DNA of 64,000 bases. Origin: Pelagicoccus sp. SDUM812003 (GTDB lineage Bacteria > Verrucomicrobiota > Verrucomicrobiia > Opitutales > Opitutaceae). The position numbers and the translations under genes were made by a program. How positions within the stretch are numbered: position 1 is the first letter of the stretch; each line of letters begins with the position of its first letter. The notes beneath the pieces are model-generated. The model saw only the letters and a program-made list of their open reading frames with translations, ran no database searches and had not been told where the DNA came from. Location: contig NZ_JARXHY010000003.1 of assembly GCF_031127815.1 (NCBI RefSeq), positions 310,001 through 374,000 on the forward strand. Direction: 5' to 3'. Of the stretch, positions 16,919 through 28,266 are shown in pieces.

Positions 16919-19900
16919 ATGACTCAATCGGAATCTCCAGACTTCGAGTTCGATCCTACGGACTTGGAAGTCGAGGGCGAAGACGCCCCGACTCCCGAGC
17001 AAGGGGGAGATGTGTCCGATGAGAGCGAATCGAACGAACCCGACTATTCGAGCGAAGTCTCTGAAGACAAGTCGCTTAGGGAGGATTCGAGCGAAGATGA
17101 TCCATCGGACGACGAGCTGTCGGGATTTGATATCGATTCCTTGCCTGATGCGTTTTCCCCATCGGAACCATCCGCGAGCGACGACGGAGCGGATTCCTCT
17201 CGGGATCCGGCAGACAGGCCGACATCGTCCGAAACGGTCGCCAATTCCCAGACCGAGGATGAATCGGTTGGGGCGGTCGAGAAGATGCCAAAGGAGCCGC
17301 CGGAACGTTCCATGAGAGATCTTGGACCCGATGACTTGGGTGCGGACGTTTTTTCCGAAATGTTCGAAGACGAGGAGGCGGTCAGTTTCGATGACGTACT
17401 GGATGACTTGATGGAGCAGGTCGAGGCTTTCGAAGCAGGTGGCGTGATCGACATGGACGAGCAGGAGGGCGATGGCGACTCGCGAGCGTCCGAAACGCCT
17501 GACATCTTTAAGTTGGACGATCCCGACGATTCCCTGCAGCGCTCGGTCGATCCGAACGCCGAAGCCCCGTCCAGAGCGAAAAAGCCTCAAGCTCCACCGC
17601 CCGTCGAGGTCGAGCAGTCGAAGCCCCTTGCGGATACGCCTTCCCCGGACCCTCGGTCGATCGCAGCCAGCGAGCCGCCCGCGCCGTCGGAGACTTCCCA
17701 ATCGTCGCCCCCTGCGGAAGCGAAGGCGGACGTCGAGCCGCCGCGACCCGTTTCCCCTGACCTCGAGATTCCAGCTGATCCGGAACTAAGCGGTCCGAAG
17801 GCCCCGCAGGCCTCGTCGCAGGTGACTCCTTCGTCCGCTCCCGCGCCTGAACCCGTCGAATCGCAGGCGGCGGAGAGCGAACCCGTTTCGCCGCGCCGCG
17901 CTACTGAAACCAAAGGCGCGACTGGCGCCGCGGCGTCGCCCCCGCCATCCCCTGACATGGAGATTCCAGCTGATCCGGTGCAGGCTGAGGAGCCTCCTGT
18001 CGAGCAGACGTCCGAGAAGGAGCCCCGCGAAGAGCAGGTTCCGGAAGAGACCGCTCAGCCTTCGGGATCTCAGGCCGACTCGCCCGATCGCGGGCAGCCG
18101 AACTCAGAACGGGCTCCGGCGGAAGGCCGCGAACGGGTTTTCTATCAGGCCGAGCCGGAAGCGCCTGCCAACGAGCAGGAAAATGACACGTCAGCGGAGG
18201 AACCGGTTTCCGAAGGAACCGAGCCTGTTGCCGAAACCCCGTCAGAGGGCCCGCTGGAGCAGGAGTCCGAAGCCGATGCGAGCGTCAAAGACGAGGAATT
18301 TCAGGTAGATCAAACTGAGGCTGTGGCCTCCGAACTCAGCGATTCACGGAGCGCGGAATTCGAGGCCGAAGCAGCGGAGACGGAGCAGGATCTGTCCGAC
18401 AGCGTGGAAGCCCTTTTCGAAGAAGCCGACGAGGAACCGGTCGAGCTGGAGAACGCGGCAGCGGGTGAGGACGAGGCTCCTGAAGCCGTCGAGCAGACCA
18501 ACGCGTTGGATGAAGAGGAGAGCGTCGCCTCCGAACTCGAGGAGATCGCGGAGGAAACACCCGCTTCTGAAACGCCCGATGACCCGCAATCCGAGAATCC
18601 TTCGGCAGAAGCTGAAGAGGACGAGGATGCCGATTTGTCGGATATCGAAGCGATTTTCGAGGAGGAGGATATCGAGAATCCAGATGCGGTTTCCGACGAT
18701 GGGTCGGCGCCTGTCGAGCAGGAGGAAACCGAGCAAGCGGACCAGCTAGAAGCGGAGGAGGAAATCGAGCAGGACAGCGTTGCCGATGCCGCGGTGGAAG
18801 ATGGATTTGGCGAGGAAGAGGACGAGGATGCCGATTTGTCGGATATCGAAGCGATCTTTGAGGATGAGGCTGAAGAAGACTCGACTCCGGAGGAGATGGT
18901 CGATGAAAGCGCTGCCGCCGCTTCTGAGGAGACGGTTTCCGACGCGGAGCAAGAGGGGAATACGGAGACGGTTTCCCAGGATGCCCAGTTGGAATCGGAT
19001 GAAGAGGAAACGAGTGACCAAGGGGAAGAGCTCGATACCGAGCTGTCTGAGGATTTAGACGCCGAAGAGGAGGATCTTTCGGATATCGCGGCCGCTTTTG
19101 AGGAAGCTGAGGATGAGTCTTCGGCAGAGCCGGAGGGGGCTTCGGAAGCGCTCGATGAGGCGGAGCAGGATGACGACGAGGAGGAGATCGCTCTGCCCGA
19201 CGACCAGGAACTGACTGATGAGGTTGCCGACGAGGCTCCCTCGGATCCAGCTGCTCCCGGCCTGGAGATTTTGGACGACGACGACGAAGAGGAGACGCTG
19301 GATGACGACGAGGAAGAAATCGCCGCTATGCCATCGCCCCTGGATTTGATGTCTGAGGCATCCGGAGATTCCGACGAGGACGAGCCGGAAGAGACCATCG
19401 AGGACGATGACGAGGAGGAGGCGAAGGCGGTAGCCATGCCGACGGCCGAGGATTTGCTCAAACGGGCAGGCAGCTTGCTCAATGGCGACAAGCCGATCGA
19501 TGGAGCGAACGAGCTTTTGGACGACTTGGACGACGAGGAGGAGATCACTGCCATGCCGTCGCCGCAGGATCTCATGGCCGAGGCCGCCCCCGAAGGCTCC
19601 GAAGACATTTCCGACGCTCCTGAAGCTGAGGATGGCATCATCGAGGATGATGAAGAAGGACTGGTCGCCATGCCGGATCCGTCTAGCTTGATGGAGTCCG
19701 CATCGGAGGGCGAGTCGGAGCAGCAGGAGGAAAAGAAGTCTGGCGACGTCGCCGACCGAGCAGGCGATTTGCCCCCGCCGCCTCCGGCTCCGGTGGAAAT
19801 CATCGATGACGATCCGTTGGACGAGGACGAGATCGCCGACTCGGAAGAGTCGGGATCGGAAATGATCGAGGACGACGAGGATCCGGAGGCGATCCTAGCG

Positions 19901-21253
19901 AAAGTCACCGGACAGACTATCCAAGCGGATGGCGACGAGATTGCGGATCCGTTCGACTCGGAGATTTCGATCGACGATTTCGATGATGACGGAGCTTTGG
20001 AAGACGCCCTTTCGGCGAGCGAGGACGCTGGCGAGCTGGACGCTCTGGCGAGCGACGCTGGCGAAAAGGCGCCGACCAAGGTGGTGGAGAAGGTTATCGA
20101 AATGCCCAAGCCAAGTTTGCTTTGGCGCCTAACTCACTCTTTGACGGTCGCCGCGGGTCTGGTCCTGATCGGCGCCGCCTGGTTGCTGACCTCTTGGAAG
20201 CAGGAGATCACCGAATACCTCGACGGTCGCGACCTCGATGGATCGGCGTTGATCCAGCAGATCAAGAGCATCGGAAGCCACGCTTTGGAGGAATTCGACG
20301 AAAACGGTCTCTATCGCATGCAGTGGGTGGACAGTGAAATCCGCCGCGTCGCCCACAATGAAATTCGCCTGCATGCCCTGGTGGGAGCGCAGCTTCGCGA
20401 AAACCTATACTTGCCGGTGCATGAGTCGGAGATCGACGGCAAGCAGGGCTACGATGAGGAGGAGCTCCTGAACGCTCTGACCTATGCCCAGCAGAATTTT
20501 CCCGAGCAGATCGGAAACTTCCCCGAGAAGCCTTGGCGGGCGCTCTATCGCATGTCAGCGTCGCGAAACGAAGTGCTGCCGCTGCGCATCACCTACAGCC
20601 TGACGCGCGATTCCGAGAAGTCGGATTGGGAGCTGGCGGGCATCAAGGTGAAGGGCCACAAGAAGGAGCTCGAGTGGCCGCAGGGCAAGCCGGCCTATGC
20701 CTACGGAGATCATGCCTACGACGTGGATTCGGACCAGTTCAGGCGCCTGTTGGCGAAGTACCAGGAATCCTCGAGCCAGTTCGTGGCCAGCATCGACTCC
20801 TTGAAGGGCAGCTATGAGGAAAAACTGGCCTCGCTGCAGCGAGAGAACGACAAACGGCGCGAGCGCGTGATGATGGCCCTTTCCCCCGGAAACTTTTATG
20901 ACGGTCTGGCCATCGTGGGCGAGGATGCCGCGGTCTCGCAGGGCGTCACCATTGTGATCACCGAGACGCGGGAGCGTGGCTCGCTGGTGAAGGGAGTCTT
21001 TCAGGTCCGCGAGGAGGGAGGTTCCGTTTCCAAGATGTTTGTGGGTTCGGTCGATTTCGAGACCTTGCCCAGCGGTCGTGAGCAAGGCGTTCTCAACCTG
21101 CGCACAGTGGCGGTTCAGGAAGCGGAAGCGCCCGAAACCGAGGCTAGATTCTTCAAGCCGGAGAGCGTTTCCAGCATTCGCCTCAAGACGGACGGATTCC
21201 GGATCGAGGGCGATACTCGAGATTTTTCGCTGCGTTTGACGCGTCACATGTAG
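16919..21253 (+). CDS. Very large acidic repeat protein with a single transmembrane helix, function unknown
   Basis: 1444 residues, not recognised. Residues 1 to ~1065 are extremely rich in Glu/Asp/Ser/Pro/Ala and probably disordered. One membrane helix follows (about 1070-1092, VAAGLVLIGAAWLLTSW), then a ~350-residue C-terminal domain with mixed helices, a short coiled coil (SLKGSYEEKLASLQREN) and a beta-rich end. With no signal peptide, the acidic arm is probably cytoplasmic and the C-terminal domain outside the inner membrane. The arm holds repeated short motifs: DLSD(I/S)xAxFEE about four times (near 18390, 18630, 18835, 19075), D(D/E)EExxAMPxxxxLM about four times (near 19310, 19410, 19535, 19650), and (L/M)EIPADP twice (near 17765 and 17960). 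Such spaced motifs usually act as docking sites. A sigma-28-like promoter precedes the gene. Confidence 0.85.
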   Translation: MTQSESPDFEFDPTDLEVEGEDAPTPEQGGDVSDESESNEPDYSSEVSEDKSLREDSSEDDPSDDELSGFDIDSLPDAFSPSEPSASDDGADSSRDPADRPTSSETVANSQTEDESVGAVEKMPKEPPERSMRDLGPDDLGADVFSEMFEDEEAVSFDDVLDDLMEQVEAFEAGGVIDMDEQEGDGDSRASETPDIFKLDDPDDSLQRSVDPNAEAPSRAKKPQAPPPVEVEQSKPLADTPSPDPRSIAASEPPAPSETSQSSPPAEAKADVEPPRPVSPDLEIPADPELSGPKAPQASSQVTPSSAPAPEPVESQAAESEPVSPRRATETKGATGAAASPPPSPDMEIPADPVQAEEPPVEQTSEKEPREEQVPEETAQPSGSQADSPDRGQPNSERAPAEGRERVFYQAEPEAPANEQENDTSAEEPVSEGTEPVAETPSEGPLEQESEADASVKDEEFQVDQTEAVASELSDSRSAEFEAEAAETEQDLSDSVEALFEEADEEPVELENAAAGEDEAPEAVEQTNALDEEESVASELEEIAEETPASETPDDPQSENPSAEAEEDEDADLSDIEAIFEEEDIENPDAVSDDGSAPVEQEETEQADQLEAEEEIEQDSVADAAVEDGFGEEEDEDADLSDIEAIFEDEAEEDSTPEEMVDESAAAASEETVSDAEQEGNTETVSQDAQLESDEEETSDQGEELDTELSEDLDAEEEDLSDIAAAFEEAEDESSAEPEGASEALDEAEQDDDEEEIALPDDQELTDEVADEAPSDPAAPGLEILDDDDEEETLDDDEEEIAAMPSPLDLMSEASGDSDEDEPEETIEDDDEEEAKAVAMPTAEDLLKRAGSLLNGDKPIDGANELLDDLDDEEEITAMPSPQDLMAEAAPEGSEDISDAPEAEDGIIEDDEEGLVAMPDPSSLMESASEGESEQQEEKKSGDVADRAGDLPPPPPAPVEIIDDDPLDEDEIADSEESGSEMIEDDEDPEAILAKVTGQTIQADGDEIADPFDSEISIDDFDDDGALEDALSASEDAGELDALASDAGEKAPTKVVEKVIEMPKPSLLWRLTHSLTVAAGLVLIGAAWLLTSWKQEITEYLDGRDLDGSALIQQIKSIGSHALEEFDENGLYRMQWVDSEIRRVAHNEIRLHALVGAQLRENLYLPVHESEIDGKQGYDEEELLNALTYAQQNFPEQIGNFPEKPWRALYRMSASRNEVLPLRITYSLTRDSEKSDWELAGIKVKGHKKELEWPQGKPAYAYGDHAYDVDSDQFRRLLAKYQESSSQFVASIDSLKGSYEEKLASLQRENDKRRERVMMALSPGNFYDGLAIVGEDAAVSQGVTIVITETRERGSLVKGVFQVREEGGSVSKMFVGSVDFETLPSGREQGVLNLRTVAVQEAEAPETEARFFKPESVSSIRLKTDGFRIEGDTRDFSLRLTRHM
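18614..18855 (+). repeat. 41-bp exact direct repeat inside the acidic protein gene
   Basis: Bases 18614-18654 and 18815-18855 are identical over 41 bases and lie 201 bases (67 codons) apart, in frame. Both encode the EEDEDADLSDIEAI motif. DNA identity, beyond what the protein motif requires, points to a recent internal duplication or gene conversion. Confidence 0.85.
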
Positions 21254-21298
21254 CTTTGGGATCGCCAGAGCGATGCGAGGCGCCTTGGTTTAGGCCCG

Positions 21299-21754
21299 AT
21301 GAGCTCGACGTCTCTTAATCCGGAATTCTCGAAAGCATTGGATGCCAAGGTAGGCTCGGCCCGCTCCGCCAGAATGGCATGGGAGCGTGCTGCGGAGAAG
21401 GCGGTATCGGCCGGACTTTCCGAGGCCAACGCGCTGCGGCTGCTCGCTCTCTTCAGCAGTCCCCGCCACATGGAGCATCTCGTGCAAGGCGCGGCGCGGG
21501 CGGGCTCCTCTCCGGACCAGACCCTGGAAGCGTTTTTCCAGCGCGTGGACGAGCTGCCCTTTTCGGTGGAGGATTGGTTCGCCGCCTTCGAAGTCGTGCT
21601 GGCGAGGCTCATTCGAGACTCCCGCAGCGTGAAGCCCGAGGTCATCGCAGGTTACCTCAGTTGCTGCGCGGAATTTGCTGGAAACAACGAAGCAGGGCAG
21701 AGCCTGCGCGAGATCGTCAGCGAAATGATCGAGCGCTACGGTTTCGACGGATAA
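21299..21754 (+). CDS. Hypothetical helical cytoplasmic protein
   Basis: A 151-residue protein that is not recognised. It has no signal peptide or membrane segment; the sequence is Ala/Leu/Glu/Arg-rich and predicted helical throughout (for example SARMAWERAAEKAVSAGLSEANALRLLALF). It starts 45 bases after the acidic transmembrane protein and is probably co-transcribed with it, so it could be a cytoplasmic partner of the acidic arm. That is inference from position only. Codon use looks normal for the window. Confidence 0.7.
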   Translation: MSSTSLNPEFSKALDAKVGSARSARMAWERAAEKAVSAGLSEANALRLLALFSSPRHMEHLVQGAARAGSSPDQTLEAFFQRVDELPFSVEDWFAAFEVVLARLIRDSRSVKPEVIAGYLSCCAEFAGNNEAGQSLREIVSEMIERYGFDG

Positions 21755-21970
21755 CGCCGACTGCGGCCTTGCGTAGCGTTCGGTAGGGGAGACGGGATAG
21801 GCAGCTCAGGGCTGCGATGAGCGTTTGGGCTCACCGTGTGGCTCGGTTTTGAGGGATCGACGCGTAATCCGCTAGACAGGCTCAGAGCGAGCGGAAAGGG
21901 GCGATGCAACAGTCCATAGCCGTTGTTTCGGCCTGGAAGTCATCAACCTCAACCGCGAGTTAGCAATACC

Positions 21971-22432
21971 ATGATCAATCGAAGCCGCCCTCTCTCCCGA
22001 ATCCTTGCCGCGTTATCCATTTTCAGTTTCCTAGCAGCAGGGGCGACGCTCGCTTGCGACGAGAAGGGGGAGGACGTTGCCGTCGAGCTCGCTGACAGCG
22101 ACTGCGGCAGCGCTTGCGTGATGGTTTTTGGCACAGTGGGCGAACCGTTTCATGTCGATCTGGCAGGAGGGAAACAGGCCCGCGGAGCCCAGTATGTGAG
22201 TGGTCCGAATGCCCTCGGGGAGCCTTGCGAGCTGCCCGAGGGTATCGCTTTCGACGAAACGTCCTTGTCCTTGGAGGGCGTGCCCTCGCGGCCTGGGTTT
22301 CACGAGTTCGTCCTGCTGGAAACCAAGCGCGGCATCACGACCGAACGAGTGGTGCTCATCGACATCCAAGCCCCGGTAGAGGCTCGGAGCTTGCAGAGCT
22401 ACGCTTCCTATTTTCTGGGCGGCATCCGCTAG
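21971..22432 (+). CDS. Small secreted protein with a putative Ig-like (He_PIG type) domain
   Basis: A 153-residue protein. The ATG at 21971 gives a proper signal peptide (MINRSRPLSRILAALSIF..., cleavage near ALA|CDE or GAT), whereas the TTG 48 bases upstream would not, so the ATG is chosen. The mature part contains LPEGIAFDETSLSLEGVPSRPGFHEFVL, which fits the LPxGLxxD...GxPxxxGxYxF pattern of putative Ig (He_PIG) domains. Cys30 lies close to the end of the hydrophobic core (ATLACDEK), so a lipoprotein is possible, though the lipobox is not canonical. Two further cysteines (DCGSAC) may form a disulfide. Function unknown. Confidence 0.65.
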   Translation: MINRSRPLSRILAALSIFSFLAAGATLACDEKGEDVAVELADSDCGSACVMVFGTVGEPFHVDLAGGKQARGAQYVSGPNALGEPCELPEGIAFDETSLSLEGVPSRPGFHEFVLLETKRGITTERVVLIDIQAPVEARSLQSYASYFLGGIR

Positions 22433-25071: not shown

Positions 25072-26763
25072 ATGTCTAAACAAGATAAATCCGTCAAAGC
25101 GATGCCGATAAGCGCCTGGCTGCTCGTCATTTGCGGCTGCATAGTCATCGCGTTTGGCTGGATGGTGCCGTCGCGCTTCAAGTCGGTGCCTTTCGGCGTG
25201 GTCAGGCAGGCTGGGGTGGAGGGGAGCTCCCTGGCGGATATCGCCCGCGAGCAGTTTATGGACGGAAACTTCTCGGCAGCTCGCTCGTTGGCGGAGGCGG
25301 CTAGCTCCTTAGGCGACAAGAAGGCCGCTTTGACGCTTTCGCAGGTGACGATGGAGTTGGAGGCCAGCGCGCAGCTGGCTCGCTGGGGGGCTTGGGACCC
25401 GTTTCTCGAAGCGGCGTTGGATGCGGTGCCCTTGGAGGCTTATTCCTCCGAGCCGGGCTTGCTTGGCATATTGATAGCCGAAGCCTGCCGCCAGCCCGTC
25501 GCGGCTCTGTTGGAGAATTCCCGCAATCCCTTGGTCGGCTCCTTGCTGGAGAGCGGAGCGTTTACCACCTACAAGCGTTTGTTTCCTGTATCCAGTTCTT
25601 CGGGACGCCCATTGGAGGTGACTTTGCTGGGGTTGGGCTTGCTGGCGCAAGGGGACCATTTCTCCAGCGAGTTTAGACAGGAACTGCGCGATTTGTTGAT
25701 GCAGGCCAAGGCGACTGGCGATGTCGGCGCTCTGGAGGACGTCTATCTTGATAGCTTGTCTCTAATGCGGATTTTCGATTGGGGACAATTCTCGGAGGTC
25801 GCCTCGCGCCTGCGCTCCAGCCAGGACCTACAGCGCTTGCGCTATCTGCTGCACCGCCGCTCGGAGAACCAGGCCTTGGTATTCGCGATGACGCTCGCGA
25901 GCGAACGTCCGGCGGAACTGTTCGACTATTTGGAAGCTTATGGTGACGAAGGCTTCGAGCGTTTGCGCTTCGCGCTGGGGACCGGCGTGGGTGGCTACCG
26001 TCTGGCCCTGCGCGAGCAACTGCCCATCGAGCTGGCTAAGCTCGAATCGGCGGGCTCGTATGTGGAAACCCTGCAGAACGCCATGGCGCCATACAGTCTG
26101 CGGCAGCCGCGCCTGTCGTTGGCCATCAAATACGGATGCTTCTTCGTGGGCTCGTTTATCGCCCTGTTCGGCCTGAGCAGATTCGGCCAGTTCTACAAGG
26201 AACGCGCCTCGCCCGCTCTCGCCTTCACGCAACGCTTCTTCGGCGCCTCGGCCTCCGTGCTGGTGTTCGCCGTACTGAGCGAACCCTACCTCGCGAACGC
26301 TGGAGCGTTCGAGGGATACTCCTTTCGGTTTGTCATGCCCGTTCTCGCCAACGTGGATGGCGAACTTCAAGTCGTCGAAACCACTCCTACTATATCTATG
26401 GAACCAGCAACCCTACTCTCGATAGCGTTCTTCCTCCTTCTGCAGGTGCTCGTCTTTTTGATCTGCCTGCTCAAGGTGAGGGAAATCGAACGCCGCGAAC
26501 TCGACCCTCTCGTGAAGCTGAAGCTGATGGAAAACGAGGAAAACCTGTTCGATAGCGGGCTTTATGTCGGCATCGCGGGCACCTGTATTTCCTTGGTCAT
26601 GCAGGTTATCCATCTGGTGGAGGCGAACTTGCTCGCGGCATATTCCTCCAACCTGTTTGGCATCCTCTGCGTGGCGATCGTCAAGATTCGCTTGGTGCGT
26701 CCCTACAAGACCAAGCTGATCATGGCAGGCCAGAGCCAAATCGCTAAGCTGGTGAAGGAGTAG
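25072..26763 (+). CDS. Polytopic membrane protein of unknown function
   Basis: A 563-residue protein, not recognised. One N-terminal membrane helix (about 14-33) is followed by a ~310-residue helical region that looks like short alpha-helical repeats (DIAREQFMDGNFSAARSLAEAAS...). About five membrane helices then follow near 350-370, 390-408, 446-467, 493-513 and 523-541. The helical region should therefore lie on one side of the membrane and end in a membrane bundle. The gene is 21 bases upstream of a coiled-coil membrane protein gene, and the two form an apparent operon. The TPR-like reading of the helical part is tentative. Confidence 0.75.
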   Translation: MSKQDKSVKAMPISAWLLVICGCIVIAFGWMVPSRFKSVPFGVVRQAGVEGSSLADIAREQFMDGNFSAARSLAEAASSLGDKKAALTLSQVTMELEASAQLARWGAWDPFLEAALDAVPLEAYSSEPGLLGILIAEACRQPVAALLENSRNPLVGSLLESGAFTTYKRLFPVSSSSGRPLEVTLLGLGLLAQGDHFSSEFRQELRDLLMQAKATGDVGALEDVYLDSLSLMRIFDWGQFSEVASRLRSSQDLQRLRYLLHRRSENQALVFAMTLASERPAELFDYLEAYGDEGFERLRFALGTGVGGYRLALREQLPIELAKLESAGSYVETLQNAMAPYSLRQPRLSLAIKYGCFFVGSFIALFGLSRFGQFYKERASPALAFTQRFFGASASVLVFAVLSEPYLANAGAFEGYSFRFVMPVLANVDGELQVVETTPTISMEPATLLSIAFFLLLQVLVFLICLLKVREIERRELDPLVKLKLMENEENLFDSGLYVGIAGTCISLVMQVIHLVEANLLAAYSSNLFGILCVAIVKIRLVRPYKTKLIMAGQSQIAKLVKE

Positions 26764-26784
26764 GGGAAAAGTAAATACGATCTC

Positions 26785-28266
26785 ATGAATAAGACGCTAC
26801 TGCTCATTCTTTGCGACTTTCTTCTACTGACGATTCTCTCCATGTGGAAGATGGAGGAGGAGGCTCCCCCTCCGAATGAAAGCTCGTCCGATAGTCCGGA
26901 GGAAGCGAGTGTGGCGGCCATGGCCATGATGGAGCAGGATCTGTTGGATACGCTGCAGTATTCGCTCGAAGAGGAGCAGGCGGAGCAGGCCTCGCTTTCT
27001 GAGGACTTGGCGGAAAAGGCGGCCGAGCTCGAACGCCAGCAGCGGGAACTGGCGGAAAGGGAAAGTCGTATCCAGAATCTGGAAAGTACGCTCACCGACG
27101 CGGAACGGCGGGAGCAAGAGCTACAGCGACAGCGCGAGCGGCTTGCCGAAGAGAAAAGCAGCTTGGAGCAAACGGTGGCCAGCGTGCAGGAAAACTACCA
27201 GCAGGTGTCTCGGCGCTTGGAGCAAACCGAGTCGGAGGCGCTGCAGAGCCAGGCTCAAGCGCGTTTGCTGCAGGAGGAGCTACAGCAGAAACTCAAGGAA
27301 ATCGAATCCAAGGAGCAGGCCTTGGCCAAGACGGCTCAAGAGCTGAACTCGACCAAGCAGCAGGTGCAGGAGCTGGACATGAAGGTGAAGATGAGCCAGC
27401 AGGAGAACGCGTTTCTGCAGGAGTCGGTGACGGAGCTAAAGGGAGCGGTTGTGGAGGAGCGCTCGGAGCGGCAACGTCTCCAGGAGCAGGCAGGCGTGCT
27501 AGCTCAGGGCGTCAGCGATCTGGCGGCGAGCTCTCAGGATATCCGACAGGAGATCCGGTCCAGCTTCGAGATCAACGCGAATCAGCTTTTCAGCGATTTC
27601 GTGAACAACCAGGTGGTGGCCCAGATCGACGCGGTGAAGTATAGCCGTAACCGATACGTGAATACGAGAGATCGAGTTTCGACGGTGCTCGTTTCCGATG
27701 GCGAGCAAGTGTACGCTCTGATGCATGTGGAGAGCGGACCGTTCGATCTCGGTACCAACCCCGCATTTATTCGCTCGATGCAGCTGACGCTGAATCGAAG
27801 AGGCTCCAGCGTCACTCCGTCTCACATGAACTTTCTCGCTTTGGATCCACGCGTGGTGGCGATGCCCTTGAGCAAGTCTCAGGTGGAGAGCTTGGGCAGC
27901 AAGCCTTACCTCACGGCCCTGAACCCGTTCAAGTTCCCCGAAGCGGTGCTGGTGAACCGACAGGGCGACTACTATGGCGAGGTCGAGTTCAAGCTTGATT
28001 CCGACACGCCGGGCTTCGTGAAGATGCAAAACAAGATCTTCAGCTCCTTGTTCGGAGAATTCTCGCCCTCGACCGGTGACATCGTTCTCTCCAAGACCGG
28101 CGAGTTGCTCGGCATCATGGTGAACAAGCGCTATTGCGCTCTGGTGAACAACTTCGTGAGCGCCGCGAGGTACGAGGCTCAGGGAGCGGTGGACGAAGAC
28201 GCTCTACGCAGGGTTCTGCGCATCCTCAACAACACTGTGGACTCCTTTCCTCGGGAGCTTCGTTAG
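26785..28266 (+). CDS. Membrane-anchored coiled-coil protein with a degenerate protease-like C-terminal domain
   Basis: A 493-residue protein. Residues 4-20 (TLLLILCDFLLLTILSM) form a membrane anchor of a kind repeatedly seen at the start of Verrucomicrobiota and Planctomycetes proteins. A long coiled coil follows (about 50-250, Gln/Glu-rich). The C-terminal ~240 residues look like a trypsin-fold domain by the segment STGDIVLSKTGELLGIMVN, which matches the GxSGxPVxxxxGxVIGI block except that the serine position is Asp, so peptidase activity is unlikely. It is co-oriented with, and 21 bases from, the 563-residue membrane protein, suggesting a joint envelope complex. Function unknown. Confidence 0.72.
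   Translation: MNKTLLLILCDFLLLTILSMWKMEEEAPPPNESSSDSPEEASVAAMAMMEQDLLDTLQYSLEEEQAEQASLSEDLAEKAAELERQQRELAERESRIQNLESTLTDAERREQELQRQRERLAEEKSSLEQTVASVQENYQQVSRRLEQTESEALQSQAQARLLQEELQQKLKEIESKEQALAKTAQELNSTKQQVQELDMKVKMSQQENAFLQESVTELKGAVVEERSERQRLQEQAGVLAQGVSDLAASSQDIRQEIRSSFEINANQLFSDFVNNQVVAQIDAVKYSRNRYVNTRDRVSTVLVSDGEQVYALMHVESGPFDLGTNPAFIRSMQLTLNRRGSSVTPSHMNFLALDPRVVAMPLSKSQVESLGSKPYLTALNPFKFPEAVLVNRQGDYYGEVEFKLDSDTPGFVKMQNKIFSSLFGEFSPSTGDIVLSKTGELLGIMVNKRYCALVNNFVSAARYEAQGAVDEDALRRVLRILNNTVDSFPRELR

Follow-up and report, generated by a model that had tools for sequence, protein, structure and literature searches.

Membrane-anchored acidic disordered scaffolds exist, and two described systems stand closest to the locus reported here. 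The account of the polar organisers HubP/FimV (PMC12918733) describes, in Gammaproteobacteria, a large single-pass protein with a long, acidic, largely unstructured and length-variable cytoplasmic region in which imperfect repeats are possible. The MapZ account (PMC7055233) describes, in Streptococcus pneumoniae, an N-terminal disordered cytoplasmic part of 159 residues, with a conserved N-terminal stretch and regions prone to form amphipathic helices, followed by one helix and a folded C-terminal domain outside the cell. The present locus lies in a window of 64,000 nucleotides from the marine bacterium Pelagicoccus sp. SDUM812003 (contig NZ_JARXHY010000003.1, positions 310,001 to 374,000 of the forward strand); coordinates below are window positions, on the plus strand unless otherwise given. 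It encodes a giant single-pass membrane protein of 1444 amino acids (16919..21253), with homologues in 17 of 200 genomes of the same family, its own included. We give an even chance to the reading of this giant as a transmembrane recruitment scaffold, with a long N-terminal arm that would display conserved short motifs to soluble partners, among which the small protein encoded next door (p151) is the lead candidate.

The giant resembles HubP/FimV in having an acidic (35% D+E, pI 3.0), length-variable, repeat-bearing region, predicted here to be cytoplasmic as well. It differs in the order of its parts, which is reversed (acidic region N-terminal, outside domain C-terminal), in having a different outside domain and in belonging to a different phylum. 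The periplasmic LysM-like domain of HubP was not found, with no Pfam match at E ≤ 1 for the whole protein or its C-terminal part, and neither was the C-terminal cytoplasmic TPR (FimV) domain, with no Pfam or NCBIfam match over cut-off; the C-terminus of the giant is predicted to lie outside. With MapZ, the giant has the same overall plan by sequence, with a predicted topology and predicted disorder, but an arm of about 1065 residues as against 159. Neither a curated-family (Pfam/NCBIfam) match nor, for the C-terminal domain, a PDB sequence match (E ≤ 1) ties the giant to MapZ, with which no direct comparison was made. Since LysM and FimV/TPR domains were not found and no family or PDB match leads to MapZ, the giant is placed under neither system. 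What is new is the motif set, the order reversed relative to HubP, an outside domain in common with a cyclase and the link to p151. A narrow literature search, which is weak evidence of absence, found no paper on Pelagicoccus or on disordered proteins of the Opitutales or Verrucomicrobia.

The open reading frame (ORF), its lengths and the gap of 45 bases (21254-21298) to the next ORF are as given in the preliminary description of this DNA. The first 1065 residues (16919..20113) form the acidic arm, with 35% D+E, 3.9% K+R, a net charge of -326 and a pI of 3.0, and the single hydrophobic peak of the protein, at residue 1074, is followed by about 350 residues. Composition, hydropathy and an AlphaFold2 model thus bear out the proposed succession of about 1065 acidic residues, one membrane helix and a folded C-terminal domain. 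From the composition of the arm and the drift of its linkers we infer that it is disordered. Comparisons across arms used the window and those 14 orthologues, out of 16 fetched loci, that have a whole arm, leaving out L029, whose arm runs off the contig, and L034, whose giant ORF is split in two; L032 and L033 are near-alike and not independent. Alignment A1 was made without L034, and alignments A3, A4 and A5 are subsets of the available sequences. Across the 15 whole giants the arm is acidic throughout and spans 311-1065 residues (D+E 28-37%, pI 2.8-3.4), and each giant has one hydropathy peak followed by about 350 residues, the maxima in L025 and L028 being 1.60 and 1.53, so that these two have no segment above the cut used. 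Two side observations concern the arm itself. A serine-rich ORF of 599 codons runs opposite to it on the minus strand (18310-20109) and is most likely a by-product of the Asp and Glu codons, not a gene, and the arm of the orthologue at L028:4829-9190 has, by eye, a stretch rich in proline and glutamine in its N-terminal part.

Three families of short repeated motifs had been noticed in the arm, and a count in the window confirms their copy numbers: four of the DLSD type, four of AMPxxxxL[ML] and two of [LM]EIPADP. The EIPADP copies occupy residues 282-288 (17762..17782) and 347-353 (17957..17977). The DLSD-type copies start at residues 491 (18389..18427), 572 (DLSDIEAIFEE, 18632..18664), 639 (DLSDIEAIFED, 18833..18865) and 719 (DLSDIAAAFEE, 19073..19105); three of the four fit the strict form DLSD[IS]xAxFE[ED], and two are identical at 14 of 14 residues over one stretch. 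The AMP copies start at residues 803 (AMPSPLDLM, 19325..19351), 839 (19433..19528, merged with a conserved AEDLLKRAGSLLNGD...ANELLDDL block at residues 841-870), 878 (AMPSPQDLM, 19550..19576) and 917 (AMPDPSSLM, 19667..19693). None of 1000 whole-arm shuffles reached the strict motif forms, and 10 of the 1000 reached a looser DLS form; scored as weight matrices, the window copies exceed both 200 block shuffles and the reversed arm. Because the motifs were picked in the same sequence, these window tests are partly circular, and the orthologues provide the independent test.

Matrices built from the window copies alone were therefore scored in the 14 orthologues against the 99th percentile of 200 block shuffles. 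The AMP-LM matrix passes in all 14, with 1-4 sites per arm, and the EIPADP matrix in 8. In addition, the identity of motif cores was compared by position with 7 same-genus orthologues and set against linkers matched for residue type, which yields approximate values since the arm alignment is uncertain: 0.86 versus 0.31 for EIPADP (p ~1e-4) and 0.54 versus 0.33 for AMP-LM (p ~0.012). The expectation that motif cores would be kept while linkers drift thus holds for two of the three families, AMPxxxxLM and EIPADP, and fails for DLSD as it had been written, with cores at 0.29 and linkers at 0.30 (p 0.58). This failure counts against an arm of conserved docking motifs, as do three further results: the DLSD matrix rises above shuffles in 0 of 14 orthologues, with one site in a diverged giant from another family (G475, described below); the AMP-LM matrix has no score in that same giant; and EIPADP is missing from 6 of the 14. 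The first DLSD copy does lie within a conserved block of the EEEDLSx type (residues 488-494 in the genus alignment), and looser DLS versions such as DISELVAA, DLSALLDA and DISSLIES recur in same-genus relatives.

Beyond these families, the arm holds conserved blocks that had not been listed before, which stand as islands between drifting linkers; their conservation is given as majority identity in a genus alignment of 8 sequences. An N-terminal peptide with FEFDPTDLEV (TQSESPDFEFDPTDLEVEG, residues 2-20, 16922..16978) reaches 0.95, and its core pattern occurs in 9 of 15 arms. It is followed by DDLGADVF (0.89; in a block with DDLGADVFSEM, residues 133-148) and DDVLDDLMEQVEAFEAGG (158-180), together at 17315..17458, with DDVLDDLM at 0.87, by KLDDPDDSLQRSVDPNA (198-214, 17510..17560), with DDPDDSL at 0.83, and by GRERVF (403-408, 18125..18142; 0.83). 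Nearer the membrane lie AEDLLKRAGSLLNGD (0.81), RAGDLPPPPPAPV (0.92), a proline block (GDVADRAGDLPPPPPAPVEIIDD, 942-964, 19742..19810), DPFDSEISIDDF (0.86; 1010-1021, 19946..19981) and, just before the helix, a stretch with EMPKPSL (0.94). The proline pattern is present in 13 of 15 arms, the window counted, with near-misses by eye in the remaining two, and the pattern AExLLxxAGS(L/I)L likewise in 13 of 15.

These data bear on a plainer explanation, in which the arm would serve chiefly as a low-complexity acidic spacer, as an ion buffer or as a mimic of nucleic acid, with its repeats as by-products of repeat expansion. Such an origin would suit the variation of arm length (about 3.4-fold, 311-1065), the exact DLSD repeats found in 0 of 14 orthologues, the 14 of 14 residues common to two DLSD copies, as in a recent duplication, and the proline/glutamine-rich stretch seen by eye in L028. 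It fits poorly with the AMP-LM motif, the proline block and the AExLLxxAGSLLNG block, which persist from genus to genus in arms that differ greatly in length, or with EIPADP cores at 0.86 when matched linker residues stand at 0.31, and we consider a pure spacer quite improbable.

The single transmembrane helix (residues ~1074-1092, 20138..20194), called from hydropathy and flanking charges, leads into a folded C-terminal domain (~1108-1444, 20240..21250) that is predicted to be extracytoplasmic. AlphaFold2 applied to the last 379 residues with 15 orthologues gave a mean pLDDT of 78.9 and a pTM of 0.59; by block, pLDDT is low at the helix end and mostly >70 further on, with 59-63 near model residues 331-350 and ~59-93 over the last 120 residues. 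The model shows an alpha/beta part, a helix of 49 residues and a terminal beta part (~1323-1444, 20885..21250). Searches with profile hidden Markov models (HMMs) found no Pfam or NCBIfam family over cut-off for this domain, and no PDB sequence matched at E ≤ 1, in agreement with the earlier statement that no known family is recognisable; TIGR03439 was considered and set aside, its match (E 0.029, 13.2 bits) lying far under cut-off. Structure comparison, like the HMM searches, placed the domain in no known family that would explain the protein. The top PDB match by Foldseek is 7nsc chain D, from a human CTLH E3 ligase module, at E 6.9e-4 with TM-scores of 0.44 (by target) and 0.23 (by query). 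Next come many GID4 entries (~165 alignment columns, 13-16% identity, TM-score by target 0.44-0.53) and, after them, nitrobindin and lipocalin-like proteins. GID4, nitrobindin and the lipocalin-like proteins are calycin-like, and the terminal beta part, placed by eye on the model strands and these matches, may be calycin-like or GID4-like too. The likeness to calycin-like barrels lies in the GID4 matches and the difference in their identity of 13-16%; with one PDB hit below E 1e-3 and a query TM-score of 0.23 the fold match is weak, which weighs against leaning on it, and we treat the resemblance as a lead and not as membership.

The giant is a narrow family. Its C-terminal domain was found in 17 of the 200 genomes of the same family (own included; 4 of 49 genera) and, with its own genome counted, in 5 of 322, 5 of 384 and 5 of 387 genomes in wider draws of the order, class and phylum, respectively; these searches score only the best first-look candidates of each genome (for example at most 19 in the p151 family search), and weak relatives may escape them. 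The named relatives are Pelagicoccus, Verrucomicrobiae bacterium DG1235 and Opitutaceae/Opitutales metagenome genomes. A single C-terminal sequence searched against the genome contigs yielded no relative and alignment A1 as query yielded 11 named loci, and in its own 5.7 Mb genome the giant has no paralogue, being itself the only match at E ≤ 10. With the widest C-terminal profile, lines at E ≤ 1 appeared in 8 of 248 genomes of an order draw: three giants of the family, G475, the weak relative G629 and three that we judged to be chance. At the line in G004 no ORF from a start codon matches, and those in G690 and G344 are, by eye, response-regulator-like proteins.

Three relatives from outside the family carry the domain in different settings. 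G475, from another family of the same order, encodes a diverged giant of 759 amino acids (L060:2549-4825) with an arm of 388 residues (35% D+E), one hydropathy peak and a C-terminal domain 20% identical to that of the window (hhalign E 1.9e-10). Its arm bears three copies of a repeat, DPExATADxxxxLxxxxGNF (residues 48, 100 and 164), which differs in detail from the window motifs. G209, from a different family of the class, encodes a protein of 624 residues (L050:4934-6805) in which a class III cyclase domain (Pfam PF00211, E 3.9e-23) comes first and the domain of the giant stands at the end (hhalign E 1.5e-16 over 291 columns), with a hydrophobic stretch between them by eye; the C-terminal domain is thus in common with the giant, whereas the inside part is a catalytic cyclase domain and not an acidic arm. 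The third, in G629, is weak (E 0.002 genome-wide; hhalign E 1e-4, probability 57%) and without an arm, and starts by eye with a signal peptide and a lipobox-like sequence. Cyclase domains are cytoplasmic and lipoproteins lie outside. Because the same domain follows the cyclase in G209 and occurs in the lipoprotein-like protein of G629, the C-terminal domain is probably extracytoplasmic and the arm cytoplasmic. K/R residues flanking the helix favour the arm side in 11 of 15 giants; they tie in 2 and are reversed in 2, which counts against this topology.

With the outside domain described, a further alternative can be weighed, in which that domain would bind the cell wall or envelope and fix the giant at a pole or division site, so that the arm would position cytoplasmic machines, as HubP/FimV and MapZ do. 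MapZ binds FtsZ and marks midcell. The overall plan as in MapZ (PMC7055233) and the acidic, length-variable, repeat-bearing region as in HubP (PMC12918733) agree with such a positional landmark. Pfam searches gave no LysM and no TPR/FimV match, however, the occurrence of the domain after a class III cyclase suggests sensing over anchoring, and a core division protein would not be expected to be limited to 17 of 200 family genomes; a landmark role appears unlikely. The G475 arm brings up another idea, that the arm strings together helices on which receiver domains dock, of the FliM/CheZ-peptide kind, and would gather phosphorylated CheY-like proteins. Part of the G475 repeat (ADQLDVLxGMMGNF) and LLNGD in the window look like FliM/CheZ receiver-binding helices, a resemblance for which no support was found. 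A phmmer search of two arm pieces gave no PDB hit at E ≤ 10 in a library without chains under 20 residues, the letters of the CheZ peptide were not found in the literature searched, and short amphipathic helices are common; we regard receiver docking as very improbable.

The lead candidate for a partner is p151 (21299..21754), a small helical protein of 151 residues. All 16 fetched loci and the window (17/17) have p151 or its homologue as the next gene downstream, on the same strand, and a p151 profile, built from the giant loci themselves, finds exactly the 17 of 200 family genomes that carry the giant. The diverged giant of G475 is likewise accompanied by a p151, on another contig (hhalign E 5.8e-10), and none was found at E ≤ 10 in G209, the genome with the cyclase version of the domain, in an assembly that is 88% complete. 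The protein is predicted as a confident helical bundle (pLDDT 92.3), without a structural relative at E ≤ 0.001 in the PDB or among viral models (best E 0.29 and 0.22) and without a sequence family over cut-off; matches to Mei4, RMD1-3, Transglut_core2 and five NCBIfam lines were all weak and were rejected.

Several observations speak against p151 as a dedicated arm-binding partner. The 17 carrier genomes are related, so that their co-occurrence does not represent 17 independent events. p151 is itself acidic in 14 of 14 cases (pI 4.0-5.0), therefore the simple charge rationale does not apply to it, and charge-driven docking on the acidic arm is unsupported. A broader p151 profile finds 96 of 220 order-draw genomes, 94 outside the family and 2 inside, with one match per genome in 95 of the 96, whereas a partly different order draw (248 genomes) gave just two genomes outside the family with the domain of the giant: G475 and G629, the latter weakly and with no arm. 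In 20 of 20 p151 neighbourhoods outside the family (L091 and some others cut by contig ends) no such domain lies near. p151 is wider than the detected giants; either it has a giant-independent role or further giants have diverged beyond recognition, and it is unlikely to serve the giant alone. Its earlier nomination as a partner keeps its footing in adjacency and co-occurrence and loses the charge argument; direct binding of the putative partner p151 to the arm is a tentative proposal, which we hold to be somewhat less probable than its opposite. Elsewhere, the p151 family (L070:8210-8683, L091-L110) has changing neighbourhoods that include housekeeping genes. No consistent neighbour emerged outside the family, the eight neighbours scanned including methionine synthase (3), ribonucleotide reductase, RpoD, Hsp33, Nudix and AhpC/TSA proteins.

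The same linkage can be turned around, into a sensor whose output is p151: an outside ligand would change the availability or clustering of p151, in the manner of a membrane regulator that holds an effector in the cytoplasm, and most of the arm would be a tether. Adjacency and co-occurrence agree with this, the presence of p151 in 94 genomes outside the family suggests that it probably has an activity of its own that is open to regulation, and the same domain sits on a cyclase in G209, whose assembly (88% complete) yielded no p151 at E ≤ 10. The conservation of several separate arm motif families would be left unexplained, however, and for p151 neither a family over cut-off nor a structural relative points to an effector by name. 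We rate this sensor as improbable.

Under the recruitment-scaffold reading, the giant would be a single-pass inner-membrane protein with its N-terminus inside. The folded domain outside would take a ligand or an envelope anchor, and the cytoplasmic, putatively disordered arm would display AMPxxxxLM, AExLLxxAGSLLNG, EIPADP and DLS-type motifs together with the proline block and the N-terminal peptide. These motifs could gather soluble partners at the membrane, and the co-encoded helical p151 is the strongest candidate to bind or regulate the arm. The preliminary proposal of an inner-membrane scaffold that gathers cytoplasmic partners is consistent with the plan of arm, helix and domain and with the linkage of p151, but its charge rationale does not extend to p151, and DLSD is not conserved as written. 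A broader version is more speculative, and we think it unlikely: the giant would belong to a modular family of bacterial transmembrane signalling proteins whose common outside domain is joined in some members to a cyclase and in others to a disordered multi-motif array, the array being the output. An outside signal would then set the number of p151 or other clients gathered, in a multivalent and possibly condensate-forming manner, and the p151 family, which is spread through the order of the window, would be a common reader of such arms.

The wider neighbourhood is largely shared among the fetched loci. The gene after p151 encodes p169 (21923..22432), which has by eye a signal-peptide-like N-terminus and an Ig-like-looking sequence, no Pfam match and a homologue in 7 of the 16 relatives, every one from the same genus. 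Further downstream come a PhoH-like protein (Pfam), a peptide deformylase (by eye; other strand), p563 and p493, each with homologues in 15 of 16 loci, PhoH being missing from L030 and the other three from L025 within the fetched stretch; upstream lie glycosyltransferase-like genes, one by Pfam and two by eye. The adjacent genes for p563 and p493 (25072-28266) have no credible family in Pfam or NCBIfam. p563 has several hydrophobic stretches, and p493 has an N-terminal hydrophobic stretch, a long coiled-coil-like part and a conserved C-terminal part, an arrangement that resembles a membrane pair like MotA/MotB or ExbB/ExbD. The giant and PhoH ORFs are both in pieces in L034 (7170-9370 and 4921-6389) and PhoH is split in L032 (9003-10481), through sequencing error or decay. 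A scan for terminators and promoters returned one terminator-like site, within the end of the coding region.

To our knowledge, rather few bacterial scaffolds have been described that rely on disordered arms bearing motifs. If the recruitment-scaffold reading is true, the giant would add one from the Verrucomicrobia group, in which the conserved motifs are defined, a specific candidate for a partner is encoded alongside and the outside domain is coupled elsewhere to a cyclase. It would also offer a handle on p151, a small helical protein found in 96 of 220 genomes of the order draw. In addition, the giant would be a direct test case of whether disordered docking arrays can stand in for enzymatic outputs in bacterial sensors.

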